Shown piece after piece: positions 20,205-33,832 of a DNA stretch of 38,335 nt (positions are counted from its first letter, which is position 1; every line of letters starts with the position of its first letter). The DNA comes from Rhodospirillaceae bacterium (GTDB lineage Bacteria > Pseudomonadota > Alphaproteobacteria > UBA8366). The position numbers and the translations under genes were made by a program. Under the pieces are notes generated by a model. It had not been told where the DNA came from, searched no databases, and saw only the letters and a list, made by a program, of their open reading frames with translations. The stretch is taken from contig PAZH01000045.1 of the NCBI GenBank assembly GCA_002716125.1, forward strand, positions 1 through 38,335, in the 5' to 3' direction.

Positions 20205-20236
20205 TTCGGCGCAGCTTGCAAGCAGGGGAGGTTGGT

Positions 20237-21022
20237 ATGAGCGGGAAGGAAATGCGCCTCCTGCATCTGACCGACCTCCACATGCGCCACGCGCTGGCCG
20301 GTACGGCGGATCGAACGGAACGGCTCTCGCGCGATATACCGGCAAACCTCGAACGTGTTGGGAAACGGTTGGAAGACTGGTCGCCCGACGTCATCGTCAT
20401 GACCGGCGATCTGCTCGATGTACCGGACGAAGTCGTGGACGGCTCCCTCCGGGAGACCGATCCTGCCGGCTATCAACAATCGGTGGAAGAATCGGCCGCC
20501 GACTACCGGTGGATGCGCGAGTGGTTGGAAGCGACGGGGCGTGACTGGCTGGTCATTCCAGGCAACCATGACCATCGCGGTGCGTTTCATGAGGTGTTTG
20601 GGGCCGCGCTCCCTGACGATCGTATCAATGGATGGCGGTTTGTCGGGTTCGACGACGATCTGGATGAGAAGCGGGCGCCCTTTCGGCCGGCGGGTGAAGT
20701 GTCTCGGTTTATTGAAGCTTTAGAGGCGGAAACGACATCGGAGCCGCAAGTTCAACTGCAGCACTATATCTTGCGGCCCCGCGTCTTTCGGCGATCCCTT
20801 TATAGCCATAGGCCCGAATCTGGCATTGTGGACGGTATCGAGCAGAGCGGCGTCGTCAGATGTGCGCTTTCCGGTCATTTCCATCCGGGTGCGCTATGCC
20901 GGAATGAAAAAGGGATCACCTATTCGACGGCGCCGGCATTTTGCGAACGTCCCTTCCCCGTCCGCCTGATCGACTTCGATCGGTGGTCCGTTACGGATGT
21001 ACAAGACCGCACACTGGATTGA
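20237..21022 (+). CDS. Calcineurin-like metallophosphoesterase
   Basis: 261 residues. The metal-binding series is complete: Asp13-x-His15 in HLTDLHM, TGDLLD, PGNHDHR and SGHFHPG. The family hydrolyses phosphodiesters such as cyclic nucleotides with two metal ions; the closest general type is the CpdA/Icc class III phosphodiesterase, but the sequence between motifs differs, so the substrate is open. GGGGAGG 6 nt before ATG 20237 fixes the start over an earlier in-frame codon. Situated between ilvE and the GrdB-like selenoprotein gene, on the same strand. Confidence 0.88.
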   Translation: MSGKEMRLLHLTDLHMRHALAGTADRTERLSRDIPANLERVGKRLEDWSPDVIVMTGDLLDVPDEVVDGSLRETDPAGYQQSVEESAADYRWMREWLEATGRDWLVIPGNHDHRGAFHEVFGAALPDDRINGWRFVGFDDDLDEKRAPFRPAGEVSRFIEALEAETTSEPQVQLQHYILRPRVFRRSLYSHRPESGIVDGIEQSGVVRCALSGHFHPGALCRNEKGITYSTAPAFCERPFPVRLIDFDRWSVTDVQDRTLD

Positions 21023-21092
21023 TACAGCTGGTCAAAGCGACCCGGGCCGTTAGAATCTTCGATAACAAACTCACTTCAATCTTGGAGCCCTA

Positions 21093-22331
21093 ATGGTTCG
21101 TCTAAGCGATCTCGCGCAAGCTGAGCGCGACCACCTTATCAATCTTCCGTGTCCAACATTCGACACACAACCTTGGGCGGAAGGCCCCCCAATTTCGGAG
21201 CGACGTGTCGCGGTCATTTCGACAGCGGGTCTCCAAAGGCGCGACGATCGACCGTTCTCTCGCGGCGATGCGGATTATCGCGTCTTCCACCGGGATACCC
21301 CGCCAGACGAAATCGTCATGAGCCACATATCGGTCAATTTCGACCGGAGTGGTTTTCAACAAGATCTCAATGTCGTTTTCCCGGTGGAGCGCCTAAAAGA
21401 AATGGCCGCGGACGGCGAAATCGGATCGGTCGCCGATTTTGGCTATTCCTTCATGGGTGCGACGGATCCGGAACAAATGGAGCCGCTCGTACGTGAAATC
21501 GCCGGTTTCCTAAAGGAAGATCAGGTCAATGCGGTCTTACTGGCCCCCGTCTGACCCAACTGTACCCGCGCCGTGAGCGCATTGGGACATTTTTTGGAAG
21601 CGGAAGGCCTACCGACAACGCAAATCAGCCTGGTTCGCATGCACACCGAAGTTATCCAGCCGCCAAGGGCACTATGGGTGCCGTTCGAGTTAGGTCGGCC
21701 ATTCGGTACACCGGGCGAAGCGGCGTTTCAACGGCGCGTAATTTCGGCAGCGCTTGCCTTGTTCGAAAGAGCGAGCGGTCCGGTCCTGGAAGACTTTCCG
21801 GAAGACGCGCCAGGTGAAGCGCCTTCGGACACAGAGGGATGGTCTTGTCCGGTCGCTCTCGGTGCACCGCCGGCGGCGGATGCGGAGGTCGGCAGTCTGG
21901 AAGCGGCTCTGTTGCAGGAGTTTCATAAATTGCGGCCATGGTACGATGTGGCGTGCCAAGCCCGGGATGGCCGTACGACCGTTGGGGCCTCGCAGATGGC
22001 GATTGACGACCTTGTTCCATTTGTTGCGGGGTTTCTCGACTCCCCGTGGCCGGATAACCCACGGGACGATATCCCCATTGGGGACGCATTTAAGTACGCG
22101 ACGGAAGACTTAAAAGGCGTCTATCTCGAAGCCGCCGCCGCCCAGCCGGGTCGCAAGGCCGGTATCGCCGAACTCGACGATTGGTTTTGGCAGGAGACGG
22201 CTTTGGCCCAGGTTTATATCGCCCTGCGGTCCAGCTTGAAGGACTGCGACGATCAATTGCTGAGTCAAATCAGCGCCCGGAATCTTATCCCGGGCGCTGT
22301 ATTGGAGAAGTTATCGGCGGCTGCAAATTGA
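21093..22331 (+). CDS. GrdB-like (glycine/sarcosine/betaine reductase selenoprotein B family) selenoprotein; in-frame UGA (Sec154) at 21552-21554
   Basis: From ATG 21093 (GGAG 5 nt upstream) the frame runs 153 codons to TGA 21552-21554, then stays open for 258 codons to TGA 22331. The junction reads LLAPV-U-PNCTRAVSALGH, a Sec-x-x-Cys redox motif. Before it, ERRVAVISTAGLQRR, VNFDRSGFQQDLNVVFP and GSVADFGYSFMGATDP match the proteobacterial branch of the selenoprotein B family, in which relatives have Cys at this place. After the motif the same family continues: LEAEGLPTTQISLVR and RALWVPFELGRPFG. The full protein is 412 residues. The downstream part alone would have to begin at GTG 21573 without a Shine-Dalgarno sequence. 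In Clostridia GrdB cleaves glycine-type substrates; here no other Grd/Prd subunits are nearby, so the reaction is unknown. Confidence 0.87.
21565..21586 (+). promoter_or_regulatory. Candidate bacterial SECIS hairpin of the GrdB-like selenoprotein gene
   Basis: GCGC (21568-21571) pairs with GCGC (21577-21580) around the loop CGUGA; CCC (21565-21567) may extend the stem to GGG (21584-21586) across a three-base bulge. The loop starts 17 nt after the UGA and its second base is G, followed by U, as in known bacterial SECIS elements. The core loop CGUG is the same as in the hairpin at 3419-3439. Confidence 0.65.
22271..22299 (+). other. Strong hairpin near the 3' end of the GrdB-like gene
   Basis: CAGCGCCCGG (22271-22280) and CCGGGCGCTG (22290-22299) form ten perfect base pairs around a nine-base loop, inside the coding region, 32 bases before the stop. 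No T-run follows. It may protect the mRNA 3' end or slow convergent transcription from ridA; this is inference. Confidence 0.45.
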
Positions 22332-22344
22332 CCGTCCGGCAATT

Positions 22345-22695
22345 CTAGTCGAGTGCCGCTCGAACGATGATCTCGACTTTAAAGTCGGGGTGGGCGAGCG
22401 GCACTTGGCCGCAGGCGCGGGTCGGCGGGTTGGCCGGATCGATCCAAGCGTCCCAGACAGCGTTCATGTCGTTGAACAATGCCATATCGCTGATCCATAT
22501 CTCAGCACAAAGTAGCTTTGATTTATCGGCGCCGACCTCGGCCAAATAGCCGTCGATCTTTGCGAGGACTTGCTGTGTTTGGGTCGCGATATCTGCAGAC
22601 CTGTCGTCGCCGACGATACCGGCAAGGTAAACGGTGTCGTTGTGAACGACGATTTGGCTCATACGAGGTCCGGAGTGGCGGCGTTGAATCGTCAT
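22345..22695 (-). CDS. RidA/YjgF/UK114 family protein
   Basis: 116 residues. HSGPRMSQIVVHNDTVYLAG, the middle helix QTQQVLAKIDGYLAEVGADKSK, and PPTRACGQVPLAHPDFKVEI (with the conserved Arg that binds the substrate carboxylate) match the family. RidA proteins deaminate reactive enamine/imine intermediates from PLP enzymes, which fits the nearby aminotransferase only loosely. ATG 22695 with AGGGAG at 7 nt is preferred over a start at 22728. Stop lies 13 bp from the convergent GrdB-like gene. Confidence 0.9.
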   Translation of the reverse strand: MTIQRRHSGPRMSQIVVHNDTVYLAGIVGDDRSADIATQTQQVLAKIDGYLAEVGADKSKLLCAEIWISDMALFNDMNAVWDAWIDPANPPTRACGQVPLAHPDFKVEIIVRAALD

Positions 22696-22720
22696 GTCGA
22701 TGCTCCCTTGGAGTGTGTTA

Positions 22721-22739
22721 TTGGACAAAGATTGTCTAA
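22721..22739. promoter_or_regulatory. Operator-like dyad upstream of ridA
   Basis: TTGGACAA (22721-22728) and TTGTCTAA (22732-22739) are inverted repeats with one mismatch, separated by AGA. The site is 26 bp upstream of the ridA start, in the divergent region with the GGDEF-EAL gene. It is sized like a repressor or activator site. Which protein would bind is unknown. Confidence 0.35.
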
Positions 22740-25032: not shown

Positions 25033-25887
25033 GTGAAGACGATACTGGTCCCGTTAGAGGAAAGCGATGTGCTACCCTCTATCCTTGAATCGGCGCTTAT
25101 CGTGGCGAAGCGATTCGATAGTTATATCGAAGGTCTGTACGAACAGCCGGGTCTGACCGAAGTGGTGGTCGCCGGCGAAGGACTGGGTGTGACGCCGCCG
25201 GATCTTGTTGAAACCTTTCAGCAGCAGGAAAAAGAACGCGCGGTCCGTGCGCACGAGCTGTTCGAAGCGTTCATGAAAGAAAAGGGCGTTCCGCTGAACG
25301 GCGGCGGAGATCCTCAAGGGCACGCGACGGCGGGTTGGGTTGAAGAAGATATCCCAGGCCGCGACCTCGTCGGAAACCGCGGACGTCTCTTCGATCTCAT
25401 CGTAGTCGGACGGCCCATTCGCAGCTCGGCAACGCCGACAATGAGCTTATTGGAAGCGGCCTTGTTCGAGACCGGCCGGCCGATTCTAATCGCCCCGCCA
25501 AAAGCGCCGACGGAACTGGCGAAGAATGTCGTTATCTCTTGGAACGGGAGTTACGAGACACCGCGCTGTATTACCTTTGCGATGCCGCTATTGCAAAGCG
25601 CTGAGAAAGTAACGGTCCTACAAGTCGAAGAGGGTATGGTCCCAGGACCTTCTGCGAACGATGCCACAATTCATTTGCGTCGAAACGGAATCGCGGCGGA
25701 AGCGCTGAATGTCGAAGCGGGTCGTCGGACCGCGGGTGAGGCGGTACTGGAAGAATCCGAAAGATTGGGAGCGGATTTATTGGTGAAGGGCGCCTATACG
25801 CGAAGCCGCATCCGCCAAATGATCTTCGGCGGTATCACCAGCCATATATTGGACGCGGCGGAGATACCCGTCCTGATGTGTCACTGA
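25033..25887 (+). CDS. Tandem universal stress protein (UspA domain)
   Basis: 284 residues, about twice the size of a single Usp domain. The first half begins with KTILVPLEESDVLPSILESA; the second carries NVVISWNGSYETPRCITFAM and ends in KGAYTRSRIRQMIFGGITSH, LDAAEIPVLMCH. The C-terminal ATP-type motif is only partly conserved. GTG 25033, preceded by GGGGGG, is chosen over TTG 25021. Usp proteins help in starvation and other stresses; partners are unknown. A short gap (83 bp) with a TATAGT hexamer separates it from the GGDEF-EAL gene. Its 3' end overlaps the convergent glycosyltransferase gene by 7 bp. Confidence 0.88.
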   Translation: MKTILVPLEESDVLPSILESALIVAKRFDSYIEGLYEQPGLTEVVVAGEGLGVTPPDLVETFQQQEKERAVRAHELFEAFMKEKGVPLNGGGDPQGHATAGWVEEDIPGRDLVGNRGRLFDLIVVGRPIRSSATPTMSLLEAALFETGRPILIAPPKAPTELAKNVVISWNGSYETPRCITFAMPLLQSAEKVTVLQVEEGMVPGPSANDATIHLRRNGIAAEALNVEAGRRTAGEAVLEESERLGADLLVKGAYTRSRIRQMIFGGITSHILDAAEIPVLMCH

Positions 25888-28127
25888 TCGGCGCACCACC
25901 GGGTCCAAAAATCGCGATACAATATCTCGACGGCGGCGACGTATTGTTTGGGATCCGCGACTGGCGATTCCGCAACCTGTTGGCGCATTGAGGACCGTAG
26001 CTGGACAAGCCGTTCGGTGTCTTCACCAAGTCGCATCGCGATTTCGATATACTCATCTTCCGTTTTCGCGATCAGATCAGGTAATCCGATGGCGGTAAGT
26101 GCGGAAGCGGCGATACGCCCCGCGATGGTCTCCCCAACCAGAGCGATAACTGGAACGCCCATCCATAATGCGTCGGCCGTGCTAATGCCACCGCCGTGCG
26201 GAAACGGATCGAGCATGATGTCGACCAAACTGTGTTTCTCCAAATGAACCATTTGCGGGTCCGCGCCAAGGAGCGTGATTCGGTCTTCATCTATGTCCAT
26301 CGCTTGGATTCTTTCTTCGAATCCGGCACGGACTTTCGGCCGATCGAGCGCCTGGCTCTTAATCAGGAGGCGTGCGGTTGATGAGCGTTTCAACAGACGC
26401 GACCATACCGCAAGCGTTCCGTCGCTGATCTTCTCGAGCCGATTGAAACTGCCGAAAGTGATGTATCCATTCCGGCGAAAGGGTGCGTCCACAACTTCAG
26501 GCGCGGGCTGCGGTGGGTAGTAGGGGATGTGGCTCGGCAAATACCGCACTTCTTCGGCGTATAAGCCGGTCTCCGACGCGGGCACGACGACCGGGTCACT
26601 TAAAAAATAATCGATTGCCTCGAGACCGGTACCGGCCGCATGGCCCCAGGCGGTCACCTGAACGGGCGCGGGTTTCCGCGCGAAGACCGGCAATCTATTA
26701 CCGGCCGAATGCCCAGACAGATCCACGAGAATATCGATTTTGTCCGCACGAATGGCCTCAGCCAATTGCGAGTCGTTCAGGCGCCGACAGTCTTGCCATC
26801 CGGTGGCGGCGGCGCGGAATGATTCGGTCCAATCATCCGACGTCAAATTGACCGAGTAGCAATAAATTTCGAACGCGTCGCGATCATAGGACATTATCAT
26901 CGGCCCAAAACCGTTCGCCGCCGAGTGCCGCCGGAAGTCGGCGGAAACATAGCCGATCCGCAGCTTACGGTTCGGATCCGGGTTGTTATCATGCGGCTGT
27001 ATGGCGGCGGCGAGAGGGGCCGCGTGCAATTCTTGCCAGCGTTTTCTCTCAGCTTGATGGTCGGCGACGCCGTAGTTTGGGTTGAAATCGAGGGTAAAGA
27101 TCAAATTGCTGTGGGCTGTCGCGTGGGTCGGATCGAGCTCGACAACGCGGCGATAGCAGGCTTCCGCTTCTTCGTTCGCGCCCTGGCCACGAATGGAGAC
27201 ACCGAGATTATTATGCGCCTCCGCCAAATCGGGCGCGATTTCGACGGCCCGGCGGGCGAATTTTTCGCTTTCCTCCAGTCGTTCCAGTAAATTCAGTCCG
27301 GCCGAAAGGTTCACCAAAGCCTGAGCGTGATCGGGCTCGAGCGTTACAGCGCGTTCGAGTGTCGCGACGGCTTCGTCGAGTTCGAGGAGCTCGATCAAGA
27401 CGCTGCCTAGATTTTGATGTGCGTTGGCGTAATCCGGCTTAAGGGCGATGGCTTGACGCAATTGAGTTGCGGCGTCCTCAAGGTTTCCCAACCCCTTCAT
27501 CACATTCCCAAGATTGTTATGGGCTTCCGGCGATTGAGGGTCGAGTTCGACTGCATGTCGCAACGATACGGCAGATTCTTCGAGCCGGCCGAGTTGTTCC
27601 AGGACGATACCGATATTGCCGTGAATTGCCGAGTTATTCGGCTCCAGGTTCGCGGCCGCCCGATACGAGGCCAAAGCTTCTTCTTGACGACCGGCTTGTT
27701 CGAGGACACCACCAAGGTTGTTATGCGCCGCCGCATGTGTCGGCAGGATATCAATGGCGCGACGCAACACGATATCGGCTTCTTCCAGCCGTCCGGCCTG
27801 CCAAAGCAGATTGCCGAGGTTGTTGTGTATGTCGACCGAATCGTTCTTCGCAGCAGCGGCCTGCTGGAGCAACTCTATCCCACTGCCGAGGTCGCCCATC
27901 TGGGCCATCGCGACGCCTTTCAAATGTAACGCGTCCGGTTGTTGCGGTAGGGCGGTTAAAATTTGGTCGTAACTTGCAATCGCTTGATCGAGCTGACCGG
28001 CGCCATGCTGCGCCATGGCATTTTGAAAAATAGCTTCGAGGTCAGCTTGTTTCGCGGAATCGGTTTGCGGCTTACCGGCTGCCTTCTTGGCTTGCTGCGC
28101 CGCGCGGCGTCTTTGCTGTCTACTCAT
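25881..28127 (-). CDS. TPR-containing O-GlcNAc-transferase-like (GT41) glycosyltransferase, larger copy
   Basis: 748 residues. A basic N-terminus (MSRQQRRRAAQQAKK) precedes about nine to ten tetratricopeptide repeats to about residue 370 (for example AHNNLGVSIRGQGANEEAEA). The catalytic part begins at KLRIGYVSADFRRHSAANGF and includes ILVDLSGHSAGNRLPVFARK, QVTAWGHAAGTGLEAIDYFL, YITFGSFNRLEKIS and DIMLDPFPHGGGISTADALW, all typical of GT41. Bacterial members glycosylate proteins; the target is unknown. ATG 28127 overlaps the stop of the upstream paralog (ATGAGTAG), so the two are coupled. The 3' end overlaps the convergent Usp gene. Confidence 0.92.
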   Translation of the reverse strand: MSRQQRRRAAQQAKKAAGKPQTDSAKQADLEAIFQNAMAQHGAGQLDQAIASYDQILTALPQQPDALHLKGVAMAQMGDLGSGIELLQQAAAAKNDSVDIHNNLGNLLWQAGRLEEADIVLRRAIDILPTHAAAHNNLGGVLEQAGRQEEALASYRAAANLEPNNSAIHGNIGIVLEQLGRLEESAVSLRHAVELDPQSPEAHNNLGNVMKGLGNLEDAATQLRQAIALKPDYANAHQNLGSVLIELLELDEAVATLERAVTLEPDHAQALVNLSAGLNLLERLEESEKFARRAVEIAPDLAEAHNNLGVSIRGQGANEEAEACYRRVVELDPTHATAHSNLIFTLDFNPNYGVADHQAERKRWQELHAAPLAAAIQPHDNNPDPNRKLRIGYVSADFRRHSAANGFGPMIMSYDRDAFEIYCYSVNLTSDDWTESFRAAATGWQDCRRLNDSQLAEAIRADKIDILVDLSGHSAGNRLPVFARKPAPVQVTAWGHAAGTGLEAIDYFLSDPVVVPASETGLYAEEVRYLPSHIPYYPPQPAPEVVDAPFRRNGYITFGSFNRLEKISDGTLAVWSRLLKRSSTARLLIKSQALDRPKVRAGFEERIQAMDIDEDRITLLGADPQMVHLEKHSLVDIMLDPFPHGGGISTADALWMGVPVIALVGETIAGRIAASALTAIGLPDLIAKTEDEYIEIAMRLGEDTERLVQLRSSMRQQVAESPVADPKQYVAAVEILYRDFWTRWCADQ

Positions 28128-29943
28128 TGCGGCTACACCATGCATGCCACATGCGGCGGTAGTGTCCTTCCACCTCGCGTGCATAGAGTTTCGAATTCGC
28201 TAAGGGCCGGGATGAAATTTGGTCCCTTAAGCTATCTCTCAATGCGGCGAGTCGTGTCGGCTCCGATGCGAGTGTAATTGCGCAGTCGAAGTAGCCGTCC
28301 GCGTCTTCCTGAACCCATTCTTCACATCCGCTGGCGGTGAGGATTGATGCGGCGATACGGCTCGCCGGTGTGTGCCCACGAAGGGAAACAACAGGGACAC
28401 CCATCCAAAGAGTTTCGAGTGTCGTTATTCCACCGTTGTTTGGGAAAGGATCGAGTGCAATATCGATCTCCCTCAATGTCTCGATGTGCTCAAACCAGCT
28501 ACTTCGACCCCGCGTCGTAACGCGTTCATCCTCGATACCGTGTTCGACGAGGCGCGAGCGCAATTGTCGGGTGACACCCTTGTCGTCTAGGGCCCCGCTC
28601 TTGAGTAAGAGGCGAGACGCTGGAACAGCCTCTAGAACTCGTGACCAAACGCGTATCGTTTCGTCGCTCAGCTTTTCGATACGGTTGAGGCAGCCGAACG
28701 TAATATATCCGTTGGAGCTCAGAGGCAGCGGCGATACGTCGGGTGCAGCGTCCGTCGGCGCATAGCAAATGGCACATGAAAGTTCGATGACTTCCTCGGT
28801 GCAATGCACAGCATCAGTCTGGGGGATCGTTGTCGCATCCGCCAGGAGGTAGTCCATCGCTCGCGTACCAGTCCCCGTACAATGTCCCCAGGCGGACACT
28901 TGAATTGGAGCCGGTCGGCGCGCGAATGCCAGTAGCTTATTGCCGGCTGAGTGCCCTGATAGATCGACAAGGATATCGATCTTGTCGTGACGAATCATAT
29001 CCGCGATCTGTGAATCCGGTTTGCCCCAGGATGGGCGCCATTGGTCCGCAGCGGTTTCGAAGTTTTCCGTCACAATATCGCGGCGCGCGGAGGTCATGTA
29101 GCAATAGGCTTCGAACGCTTCTCGGTCGCGTTCCAGTATCACGGGGCCAAATGAGAACGCTGCCGAATGATTTCGAAAGTCTCCGGAAACATAACCGATA
29201 CGGAGTTTACGGTCGGGGTCGCGATCGATTGCGAAATGAGGTACACCAACGCTCAACGGGTCGGCGAACCGTTCCGCCCAGCGGCGCCTCTCCGCTTGTT
29301 GCATCTCGAAACTGACAGATGCGTTGAAATCGAGCGCAAATATCAGATTGCTATGGGCACGTTCGTAATCCGGATTGATCGACAAGGCCTTACGGAACGC
29401 GGCTTCCGCACCGTCCAAGTCACCGCGTCGGCGCAATATCGAACCAAGATTGCTATACGATTCAAAATTACGTGGCTGTAGCTTCAGTGCGCGGCGCACC
29501 GACGTTTCAGCTTCGTCGATCCGGCCGCCGCCCAATAACAAAGTCGCCAGATTGCTGTGCGCTAACGCGTAGTTCCGGTCGAGGCGTATGGCCTTGCGAA
29601 AGGCTTTCTCGGCGCGTTCATTGTCGCCTGCGTTTAACAAGACATTGGCAAGGTTACCGTGAAAGATGGGTGCGTTTGGCCGGAGCGACACCGCCTCGTT
29701 TAACATCGTCAGGGCTTCTTCCGTTTGCCCTTGTTGAAAGGCCAGTAGTCCGCGGTAGTGCAGTGCATCCGCATTGCGCGGGTTCTCGTTTAAGAGTTGG
29801 TCGTAGACCGCCTGCGCTTCAGCGAATTGTCCCGCTTGATGCGCCCGACGCCCGGCATCAAACCGGGGGTCGGACTGGCTTTGCTGCGAACCGTCGTTCT
29901 GCTTGTTGGCGCGGGCGGCGCGTCGGCGTTGCTGGCGGTTCAT
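28120..29943 (-). CDS. TPR-containing O-GlcNAc-transferase-like (GT41) glycosyltransferase, smaller copy
   Basis: 607 residues, paralog of the next gene. The same kind of basic N-terminus (MNRQQRRRAARANK) is followed by about six TPRs to about residue 200 and a GT41 catalytic part: KLRIGYVSGDFRNHSAAFSF, ILVDLSGHSAGNKLLAFARR, QVSAWGHCTGTGTRAMDYLL, YITFGCLNRIEKLS, DIALDPFPNNGGITTLETLW. The two proteins share domain order and motifs but differ in TPR number, which suggests duplication and different partners. It begins 7 bp after the Fe-alcohol dehydrogenase stop and overlaps the larger copy by 8 bp. Confidence 0.92.
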   Translation of the reverse strand: MNRQQRRRAARANKQNDGSQQSQSDPRFDAGRRAHQAGQFAEAQAVYDQLLNENPRNADALHYRGLLAFQQGQTEEALTMLNEAVSLRPNAPIFHGNLANVLLNAGDNERAEKAFRKAIRLDRNYALAHSNLATLLLGGGRIDEAETSVRRALKLQPRNFESYSNLGSILRRRGDLDGAEAAFRKALSINPDYERAHSNLIFALDFNASVSFEMQQAERRRWAERFADPLSVGVPHFAIDRDPDRKLRIGYVSGDFRNHSAAFSFGPVILERDREAFEAYCYMTSARRDIVTENFETAADQWRPSWGKPDSQIADMIRHDKIDILVDLSGHSAGNKLLAFARRPAPIQVSAWGHCTGTGTRAMDYLLADATTIPQTDAVHCTEEVIELSCAICYAPTDAAPDVSPLPLSSNGYITFGCLNRIEKLSDETIRVWSRVLEAVPASRLLLKSGALDDKGVTRQLRSRLVEHGIEDERVTTRGRSSWFEHIETLREIDIALDPFPNNGGITTLETLWMGVPVVSLRGHTPASRIAASILTASGCEEWVQEDADGYFDCAITLASEPTRLAALRDSLRDQISSRPLANSKLYAREVEGHYRRMWHAWCSRNE

Positions 29944-31327: not shown

Positions 31328-31804
31328 CTACTCAGCCGCATCCCGATGGTCGCGTTCCCAGCGTTCTGCCGCGCGATCGTCCGTTTCCTTCGCTTCTACC
31401 CATTGCGCGCCCAATTGGTCCGATTCTTCGAGCTTCCAGAACGGGGCCTTCGTTTTGAGCCAATCGATTAAAAAGGCGCAGGCGTCGAACGCCTCTTGGC
31501 GGTGGGCGCTCGCGGTCGCGACCAAAACGATCCGATCGCCCGGTTCAAGCCGTCCGTAGCGGTGGACGATAAGACTGGCCTCCAAGTCCCAACGCTCGTT
31601 CGCCTCCGCTTCGATTTCCCGCAGCATCTTCTCGGTCATGCCGGGGTAATGCTCCAAGGTCATAGCCTTGAGGGCGTCGTCTCCGCCGAGGTCCCGGACC
31701 AGCCCGACAAAGCTGACCATACCGCCAATATCCGTATTGCCGTCGGTCAAAGCCGCCAATTCGCCGCCGATATCAAAATCTTCCGATTGGACTTTGACAC
31801 TCAT
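31328..31804 (-). CDS. moaE: Molybdopterin synthase catalytic subunit
   Basis: 158 residues. Motifs are GGMVSFVGLVRD, LEHYPGMTEKMLREI, IVHRYGRLEPGDRIVLVATA, HRQEAFDACAFLIDWLKTKA, and the catalytic lysine segment PFWKLEE. MoaE holds the precursor Z while MoaD delivers sulfur to make molybdopterin. It begins 3 bp after moaD. With moaD, moeA and mobB it serves molybdenum enzymes such as the oxidoreductase at the left end of the window. Confidence 0.97.
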   Translation of the reverse strand: MSVKVQSEDFDIGGELAALTDGNTDIGGMVSFVGLVRDLGGDDALKAMTLEHYPGMTEKMLREIEAEANERWDLEASLIVHRYGRLEPGDRIVLVATASAHRQEAFDACAFLIDWLKTKAPFWKLEESDQLGAQWVEAKETDDRAAERWERDHRDAAE

Positions 31805-31807
31805 AGG

Positions 31808-32059
31808 CTAACCCCCTGTCATTGGCGGAAAGATCGCGACTTCGTCGCCTTGGGCGACGGGGGCGTCTAATTCGGCGAATTCCTGGTTTACGGCAACGCG
31901 GATCGAAGCGAAATCGGCCAAAGCGTCGGCAAAATTGGAATTCCGCTCTTTCAGCCAATCGAGTAGGCCGGCAACGTCCGAAATTTCCGGCGGCATTTCC
32001 ACGTCTTCCGCATCTATTCCGGTTTTTTGCCGTAACCAGGCAAAGTAAAGAATCTTCAT
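31808..32059 (-). CDS. moaD: Molybdopterin synthase sulfur carrier subunit
   Basis: 83 residues, ubiquitin-like fold. It begins MKILYFAWLRQKTGIDAE and ends in EVAIFPPMTGG, with the C-terminal Gly-Gly that is thiocarboxylated and inserted in MoaE. The start codon overlaps the moeA stop (ATGA), and moaE follows after 3 bp. Confidence 0.97.
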   Translation of the reverse strand: MKILYFAWLRQKTGIDAEDVEMPPEISDVAGLLDWLKERNSNFADALADFASIRVAVNQEFAELDAPVAQGDEVAIFPPMTGG

Positions 32060-33324
32060 CCGAGAACCTCACTAAAGGGCAGGAAGTCGACGGTCGAACC
32101 GGCTTCGAGTTCGGTCATATCTTCCGGCAATTCGACCAGGCCGTCCGCACCCACGAGCGACGATAAAACGCCGGCGCCGCTGGCACCATATTTTTGCGCG
32201 CGGGCCGTTCCGTCCCGCGTGTCTTCGAGCCGGGCGCGAACATACTCCCGGCGGTCGAGTTTCTTCTTATGAGAAAACCCTGCCGTCACGCGATAGACCG
32301 CTGGCGAGATTTCAGTCGCCCCGCCGAGACGCAACACCAAGGGTCGTCCGATCAGCAAGAACGTGACCATCGCCGCGACGGGGTTGCCGGGGAGACCAAT
32401 AAATGCCGCGCTTCGATCGCCGGCGTGAACCTGTCCAAGAGAGACAGGGCGGCCTGGCTTAATCGCGAGACGCCAAAAATGGAGGTTCCCGTTGTCGGAT
32501 ACTGCTTTTCCGACGTGATCTTCTTCGCCCACCGACATACCGCCGCTCGTGACGAGCACGTCATGTGTTCTCGCGGCCTTTCGGATCGCTTCGGCGATTT
32601 TCTCGGGACTGTCCGGCAGGATACCAAGATCATCGACAACGCAGCCAAGGCGTTCCAATGCAGACATAGTGGTATAGCGGTTCGAATCGTAGATCTTGCC
32701 GGCGGCCAGCGTGTCGCCGGGTTCGCCAACTTCGTCGCCTGTCGAAAATATTGCGACATGGACTTTCTCGAACACTTGTAATTCGGCGCGTCCGACGGCC
32801 GCCGCGAGCCCGACTTCCTGCGGGCGCAGACGCAGACCCGATTTTAAAATGGTCCGGCCTTTCGTCACGTCTTCGCCGGCGGCACGGCAATTCGCACCTT
32901 GCTTGATCCCGGGCGCGATGGTGACGACGCCATCCGCTTCGCTGCAATCTTCTTGCATCATAACGGTGTCTGGTCCGGCCGGCATGGGAGCGCCGGTAAA
33001 TATCCGAATTGCCTCGCCGCGATTGGCCGCGCGGCCGAGCGGATGTCCGGCGGCGGCGCGGCCGCCAATCGGGAGAGTTGTGGCTGCAGACGGATCAAGA
33101 TCCTCGAAAAATACGGCGTAACCGTCGACAGCCGAATTTGCGTGCGGTGGTACGTCAACCGGTGAGACGATATCCTCCGCCAATATTCGGCCGACAGCGG
33201 CGCGAAGCGGCACGGTCGTCACGTCGGTAACCGGCGTGATCCTATCGGACAGAATCGTCAGCGCTTCCGACGTCGTGATCAGCCGGTCCGCCCCCGAAAA
33301 GCAATCGTCACTCAGTTGCGCCAT
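32056..33324 (-). CDS. moeA: Molybdopterin molybdenumtransferase
   Basis: 422 residues, the usual MoeA size. VDVPPHANSAVDGYAVFFED, IFTGAPMPAGPDTVMMQEDC, ILKSGLRLRPQEVGLAAAVG, STGDEVGEPGD, VTSGGMSVGEEDHVG and GLPGNPVAAMVTF are classical. MoeA inserts molybdate into adenylated molybdopterin. It overlaps mobB by 17 bp at the start and moaD by 4 bp at the end. The insertion of moeA and mobB between pgsA and moaD makes this Moco cluster larger than the usual pgsA-moaD-moaE group. Confidence 0.97.
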   Translation of the reverse strand: MAQLSDDCFSGADRLITTSEALTILSDRITPVTDVTTVPLRAAVGRILAEDIVSPVDVPPHANSAVDGYAVFFEDLDPSAATTLPIGGRAAAGHPLGRAANRGEAIRIFTGAPMPAGPDTVMMQEDCSEADGVVTIAPGIKQGANCRAAGEDVTKGRTILKSGLRLRPQEVGLAAAVGRAELQVFEKVHVAIFSTGDEVGEPGDTLAAGKIYDSNRYTTMSALERLGCVVDDLGILPDSPEKIAEAIRKAARTHDVLVTSGGMSVGEEDHVGKAVSDNGNLHFWRLAIKPGRPVSLGQVHAGDRSAAFIGLPGNPVAAMVTFLLIGRPLVLRLGGATEISPAVYRVTAGFSHKKKLDRREYVRARLEDTRDGTARAQKYGASGAGVLSSLVGADGLVELPEDMTELEAGSTVDFLPFSEVLG

Positions 33325-33832
33325 CTTTTGCCGTCTCGCCCAAGCCGCAATGCGATGCGATAAACGCGGCGATCATGGAAATATCGCCAAGATCGAGCAC
33401 CGGACATCTAATATTGGTTAGTGCGGCATCGCTTGCAATTGCCACGATACTCTCGTCCTCATTCGCCAGCAGCGGTTTACCAACGGAAGGTCGGTGAACT
33501 TCCAGTTTATCATGGGGATAGCTCTTGAATCCTTCGATAAGGAGTAGGTCGACCGGCGACATGCGCGAAATCAATGTGTCGACATCTGGCTCACCTTCGC
33601 CGCGATTCTCGTGCATCAATGCCCATCGATCGACAGAGGTCACCATGACTTCCGTGGCGCCCGCACGGCGATGTTCGTAGGAATCCTTGCCGGGCGTATC
33701 GATATCGAAGCGGTGATGCGCATGCTTGATGGTGGAAACGGTCAGGCCCAGCTGTGTGAGTTCGGGGATCAAACCGACCAAGAGCGTCGTCTTGCCGCTA
33801 CCACTCCATCCCGCGAGTCCAAAAATTTTCAT
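33308..33832 (-). CDS. mobB: Molybdopterin-guanine dinucleotide biosynthesis adapter protein
   Basis: 174 residues. Walker A GWSGSGKTTLL near the start, TVSTIKHAHHRFDIDTPGKD, SYEHRRAGATEVMV and LLLIEGFKSYPHDKLEVHR match MobB, a GTP-binding helper for making the bis-MGD form of the cofactor. That form is the one needed by DMSO-reductase-type enzymes such as that at 3-1307. No mobA is seen in the window. It is 12 bp after pgsA. Confidence 0.95.
   Translation of the reverse strand: MKIFGLAGWSGSGKTTLLVGLIPELTQLGLTVSTIKHAHHRFDIDTPGKDSYEHRRAGATEVMVTSVDRWALMHENRGEGEPDVDTLISRMSPVDLLLIEGFKSYPHDKLEVHRPSVGKPLLANEDESIVAIASDAALTNIRCPVLDLGDISMIAAFIASHCGLGETAKDGATE

Follow-up and report, generated by a model that had tools for sequence, protein, structure and literature searches.

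In the D-proline and glycine reductase systems (Prd and Grd), a carbonyl polarises a carbon-nitrogen bond and a selenolate attacks the alpha carbon. Selenoproteins carrying the name 'proline reductase' are among the commonest in ocean surveys. In the passages available to us, the Sargasso Sea study of 2005 counts 42 'proline reductase (PrdB)' selenoproteins with a UxxC motif and gives them a proline reductase function (PMC1088965), the Global Ocean Sampling study of 2008 counts 235 PrdB UxxC selenoproteins under pfam07355 (PMC2398784), and a later marine study attributes 6.4% of selenoprotein genes to proline reductase (PMC9402790). Excerpts from broader work list five proline reductases in 2006 (PMC1794560) and, in a 2016 survey, proline reductase in 110 organisms together with selenocysteine (Sec) in many aerobes (PMC5029168), while excerpts from reviews of 2022 and 2026 equate PrdB with TIGR04483 and UxxC (PMC9312934, PMC13188914). 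A further described relative, FarB, is a GrdB-like selenoprotein predicted to attack the carbon-fluorine bond of fluoroacetate, with a partner, FarE, that lacks the pyruvoyl site (excerpts of PMC10838667; in part PMC12366334). The portions seen of PMC12013277 and PMC1914089 held nothing bearing on this point. Since the marine surveys count UxxC 'PrdB' selenoproteins, the broad family is already in print; for the long form analyzed here, its additional domain and its missing partner, our literature search found no published description.

The window, that is, the whole 38,335-nucleotide stretch of Rhodospirillaceae DNA that was analyzed, contains one such long-form gene with the following features.

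21084..21087, + strand: GGAG, a likely ribosome-binding site, 5 bases 5' of the ATG at 21093
21093..22331, + strand: PrdB-like selenoprotein gene, long form, 412 residues with UGA as codon 154, translated with TGA as U, homologs extending across the TGA
21189..21782, + strand: redox module homologous to PrdB and GrdB, residues 33–230 (TIGR04483 over 33–224, PF07355 over 77–151; alpha/beta model built with Cys in place of Sec)
21552..21554, + strand: in-frame UGA, predicted selenocysteine U154 (TGA in 86/86 long-form copies, Cys in Cys-form homologs)
21561..21563, + strand: Cys157 of UPNC, predicted resolving cysteine (UxxC in 85/86 long-form copies)
21566..21582, + strand: SECIS-like hairpin region, four pairs (21568–21571 with 21577–21580), loop GU at 21573–21574
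21894..22328, + strand: C-terminal all-helical domain, residues 268–412, no Pfam family

The reading frame comprises 153 codons from the ATG at 21093, the TGA at 21552–21554, 258 further codons and a terminal TGA at 22329–22331, and the junction reads LLAPV-U154-P-N-C157-TRAV. Both the 258-codon continuation and a redox motif with Cys157 at the junction had been described in the original prediction, and translation confirmed them at these positions. An open frame beyond a TGA is no proof in itself: elsewhere in the window, the same scan found 38 more TGAs flanked on either side by stretches of at least 60 open codons. Homology across the TGA lifts the UGA reading above chance: the codon is TGA in every long-form copy compared, and Cys homologs are undivided proteins that read straight through this place.

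A protein search with the window protein gave at least 3047 matches. Among the 120 listed, 113 are gene calls that start after the UGA and so cover only what follows it (229–271 residues), and six span it with Cys. The last, P0017, is a 348-residue relative that spans the place of the UGA but lacks exactly the stretch around the UxxC motif, perhaps because the gene call jumped over the stop. A second search, started from a Cys form, gave 290 matches, those listed being mostly undivided proteins of about 405–445 residues. Together, 123 proteins were examined (117 newly listed and the six above); CxxC occupies the UGA place in all 122 that cover it, the remaining protein, P0230, being a fragment that stops short. 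In P0238, the CPNC is followed by A. The expectation that relatives would carry Cys thus holds for these homologs but not for the nearest relatives, which carry Sec.

A survey that took a single genome from each species yielded 418 confirmed relatives. The 86 long-form copies come from the best 80 of the 418 loci plus the two other long loci of the window's own genome; Cys forms are under-represented among these 80, since the ranking favours sequences near the query. Cys lies three codons after the TGA in 85 of the 86 copies, and the remaining copy has one inserted residue. Within the order to which the window genome belongs, 25 of 43 genomes contain the family, with 1–11 matches per positive genome, mostly as several diverged copies. 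Near-full-length long copies in the order, counted by eye with the window included, have an internal TGA in 50 of 51 cases and none in one; two of the 50 also have a TAA or TAG, and one has a second TGA. The genomes of this survey may overlap with those of the one-per-species scan.

The genome, an assembly of 4.78 Mb in 89 contigs with a completeness of 87.6%, encodes the selenocysteine pathway: SelB (454 bits, over its cut-off) with SelA directly before it (528 bits), SelD (312 bits) and a tRNA-Sec with anticodon TCA. In three other loci (L042, L060, L072), the long gene is preceded on the same strand by a SelD gene over the NCBIfam cut-off, 16–77 bp upstream; L104 has an oxidoreductase/SelD-related fusion 87 bp upstream, and L072 also has SelB (431 bits) 3.4 kb upstream. 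The four loci do not form one clade. The window gene is almost certainly a selenoprotein gene with Sec inserted at UGA 154, as predicted from these comparisons. Neither of the findings that the original prediction named as refuting it, close homologs split into two genes or a genome lacking the selenocysteine pathway, turned up.

Of 91 TGA segments, one was dropped for an N, and the hairpin behind the UGA was compared in the remaining 90 distinct ones, with positions counted from the T of the TGA as 0. Core pairs 17–27, 18–26 and 19–25 form in 89, 89 and 90 of the 90 segments, and outer pairs 14–30 and 15–29 in 81 and 84, both being broken in the window. The other pairs tried form less often (13–31 in 5, 16–28 in 35 and 20–24 in 63). 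When the partner strand is slid by 1–3 bases, pairing over all eight pairs tried drops from 74% to 29–58%. The loop GU is conserved and the pairs show two-sided changes between long and short forms, although part of this conservation comes from Arg and Val codons that are themselves conserved. Compared with shuffled sequences, the region after the UGA shows no lowered folding energy, and the energy of the hairpin itself is ordinary.

As to family, the window protein passes the Pfam gathering cut-off of PF07355 (31.2 bits over residues 77–151; cut-off 22) and misses all five Prd/Grd NCBIfam cut-offs. Its best NCBIfam model is TIGR04483 (PrdB), at 90.6 bits and E 1e-25 over residues 33–224, under the cut-off of 300; the Grd models follow with 44.3 bits for TIGR01918 (cut-off 65.45) and 34.7, 46.6 and 55.1 bits for the GrdB/F/H models (cut-offs 602.2, 800 and 775). 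A control PrdB encoded beside PF09338 matches in G101 scores 326.3 bits with TIGR04483. Control GrdB sequences from G064 and G017 score 374 and 233 bits with TIGR01918, and 95.9 and 81.9 bits with the PrdB model. The window protein therefore comes no closer to PrdB than the GrdB sequences do, and it is farther from GrdB; judged by sequence, it is a third branch. Residues D84, D91, N93, P97, Sec/Cys154, C157, E169, G172 and R192 are common to the control PrdB, and also to the two GrdB sequences except for N93 in one row. P155 is replaced by G in PrdB and both GrdB sequences, UPxC corresponding to UGTC. The label 'GrdB-like' given in the original prediction was right as to the selenoprotein B superfamily with UxxC, but too narrow for a protein whose best model is PrdB, which falls under all specific cut-offs in a branch of its own and which has an additional C-terminal domain.

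A quick tree (short search, rooted on one PrdB and two GrdB sequences, and carrying a long-branch warning) has a branch with support 99 that sets the long forms, both Sec and Cys (113 rows), apart from five short forms. In this tree, 24 of the 26 Cys rows form one clade, and the other two, P0004 and P0005, fall among the Sec rows.

The frame of the control PrdB ends about where the shared module ends. The additional domain of the window protein, of about 145 residues, gave a confident predicted model of seven helices, and a PDB comparison of this model found no convincing match. In the predicted model of the redox module, which resembles a Rossmann fold and was built with Cys for Sec, the residue 154 motif follows a strand and stands just before a helix.

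Classical Prd and Grd systems involve a pyruvoyl partner subunit of the GrdE/PrdA family (PF09338), and the genome has no PF09338 match. A single absence is weak, since the assembly is 87.6% complete. As a positive control, PF09338 was run on the class to which a Clostridiales locus (L094) belongs and matched in 6 of 59 genomes there, none of these matches being in the genome of L094 itself. Across the window's order, it exceeds its cut-off in one genome of 43, G017, where it lies beside a classical GrdB with UGTC (L120, contig C421); the same genome also has many long and short forms. Sub-threshold matches of 20 bits occur in two other genomes of the order (L121 at G035:C2 and L122 at G034:C5), inside a 595-codon frame with one TGA. 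The PrdA model TIGR04480 and the GrdA model PF04723 likewise found nothing in the genome, but neither matched anywhere searched, so these two nulls come with no positive control. A haem-copper oxidase (549 bits) makes respiration with oxygen likely. The original description of an aerobe-type protein is supported by the oxidase, and its suggestion that the other Grd subunits are lacking is supported, as to the GrdE/PrdA partner family, by the PF09338 result. We consider that the window protein probably acts stand-alone, with no pyruvoyl partner.

Seven family members are present in the genome, three long (the window gene and those on C23 and C67) and four short; the codon is TGA in six and TGC in one short copy. 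The six outside the window (L023–L028) lie on contigs C23, C67 (two), C38, C9 and C10. TauD genes occur within 2.5 kb of three of them (L023, L024, L028), one being 36 bp downstream, and L024 and L025 have a luciferase-like monooxygenase gene within 1.1 kb. In L030, L031, L052 and L068, two long-form genes stand in tandem, which suggests a possible hetero-oligomer. The window gene itself has two immediate neighbours.

20216..21022, + strand: calcineurin-like phosphoesterase gene (PF00149), 70 bp before the ATG
22345..22728, - strand: Rid-family gene (PF01042), convergent and downstream

Two further members have a PF00149 phosphoesterase gene in front of them, directly before the long copy of L105 (L105:3-659) and at a distance of 396 bp from the short copy that the window's own genome has in L026 (L026:8803-9678); with three family members, the cases are too few to tell a link from chance. 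A Pfam scan of immediate same-strand neighbours, 45 upstream and 40 downstream, revealed no general family. In seven loci, the long form has a class III CoA-transferase gene no more than 130 bp upstream, and in five of these also a 2-hydroxyacid dehydrogenase gene within 36 bp downstream. This neighbourhood counts as one event, because the seven loci form one clade (support 100). A CoA-transferase gene also adjoins two short own-genome copies; neither it nor TauD is found beside the window gene. In their wider flanks, the window gene and the closest relative, L048, both have genes for a tRNA-binding protein, for a GGDEF-EAL-like protein and for a histidine kinase paired with a response regulator. 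Elsewhere in the window are two adjacent TPR plus glycosyltransferase-41 genes with a 65-base overlap (25881–29943, - strand), and molybdenum cofactor genes (MoaE, MoeA and MobB families) with the C-terminal part of a DMSO-reductase-family enzyme (31328–33832, - strand, and 78–1307, + strand).

The reading we favour is a stand-alone selenol reductase, a PrdB homolog with a C-terminal helical domain, Sec at the UGA and no pyruvoyl partner, acting by a carbon-bond mechanism inferred from its relatives. We give this combination about an even chance, and carbon-bond cleavage, taken separately, seems to us just as evenly balanced. The selenolate of Sec154, just before the helix, would attack an activated carbon beside a carbonyl and displace a substituent; Cys157 would resolve the selenium-carbon adduct to a selenenylsulfide, from which a thioredoxin-type thiol system could restore the selenol. 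The C-terminal helical domain might supply the substrate pocket, which is the job of the partner subunit in Prd and Grd. The substrate would be an organic acid or CoA ester with another leaving group and probably not a plain amino acid, since without PrdA or GrdE no Schiff base can form by the known route. Retention of the selenol module without a partner points to an already activated substrate, as in the case of FarB, and the CoA-transferase and 2-hydroxyacid dehydrogenase neighbours are a possible hint at the substrate class. We therefore infer a reaction different from those of the Prd and Grd reductases, as the original prediction had proposed. A more far-reaching version is tentative and, to our mind, somewhat less probable: the long form would be an enzyme family of its own, of single-protein, pyruvoyl-independent selenol reductases built from a PrdB-like module and a helical domain not classified before. 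Respiring bacteria would have amplified it to several copies per genome, each specialised in the reductive removal of an alpha substituent from its own organic acid or acyl-CoA, and ocean counts of 'proline reductase' would then largely represent something else.

The strongest competitor, though rather unlikely, is a general thiol redox protein, such as a disulfide, peroxide or methionine-sulfoxide type reductase, that uses a thioredoxin-like UxxC with no cleavage of a carbon bond. The modeled position of UxxC, after a strand and before a helix, resembles that of thiol redox motifs, the motif is UPxC in place of the UGTC of Prd and Grd, no general pathway neighbour is found, and one marine survey, in the passage seen, places PrdB among thiol-dependent redox selenoproteins (PMC2398784). 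Nevertheless, the homologs of the module are substrate-binding reductase subunits, many of its residues outside the motif recur in PrdB, and several diverged copies per genome in varied catabolic surroundings suit substrate-specific enzymes better.

A role beside oxygenases, in which the protein reduces or protects the product or active site of TauD-family 2-oxoglutarate dioxygenases, appears improbable. Three Cys long forms (P0148, P0149, P0150) are fused to a complete TauD/TfdA dioxygenase domain, and TauD genes lie near three own-genome copies as described above. However, the fusion occurs in only 3 of 120 relatives listed, the TauD neighbour at 36 bp is not clearly of the fused type, and TauD accounts for one of the 40 immediate downstream neighbours. 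Among 87 loci, TauD genes number five near and five farther (13.0 versus 6.2 per Mb), too few to judge.

We regard as very unlikely the proposal that the protein is a genuine, if unusual, D-proline, glycine or betaine reductase subunit, its partner being encoded in sequence that the incomplete assembly lacks. Kinship and the incomplete assembly speak for it, as does the name 'D-proline reductase (dithiol) PrdB' that JGI gives to some relatives; yet the partner family exceeds its cut-off in a single genome of the order, compared with 25 of 43 that have the family of the window protein, and in that genome it stands beside a separate classical GrdB. Finally, we give almost no credence to a true stop or a sequencing error at the UGA, since, despite the unremarkable hairpin energy and the 38 chance readthrough frames, TGA recurs at the same codon in all 86 copies from many assemblies, with full Sec machinery and undivided Cys forms.

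The amino-acid fermentation implied by the name 'proline reductase' makes little sense for a protein with no partner subunit in a cell with a terminal oxidase. If the long form is a partner-free reductase, a large set of genes at present recorded as halves (113 of the 120 matches listed) would merge into a single enzyme family whose substrates can be tested, and respiring bacteria would share in a reductive chemistry that has mostly been associated with anaerobes.

Among described systems, the 'PrdB' selenoproteins of the Sargasso Sea and Global Ocean Sampling studies are similarly marine and possess UxxC; the passages seen mention neither a C-terminal domain nor an absent partner. Selenoprotein B of glycine, sarcosine and betaine reductases (PF07355, TIGR01918) shares UxxC and the broad PF07355 family, whereas the window protein falls under the cut-offs of TIGR01918 and the three specific Grd models and aligns to the C-terminal half of the models only. 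FarB of Synergistota resembles it in being a Sec protein of GrdB-like type, with a predicted substrate that is not an amine (PMC10838667, in the part seen). In contrast to the window protein, FarB is anaerobic, has the partner FarE and is predicted to feed GrdA and GrdC; it can serve only as a partial model, because it lacks the CxxC residues and still has FarE. Compared with the PrdB of D-proline reductase, the window protein scores 90.6 bits against a cut-off of 300, has UPxC for UGTC and about 180 further residues, and comes from an assembly in which no PrdA was found, but the two are homologous over residues 33–224 and carry Sec in a UxxC motif at the same place.
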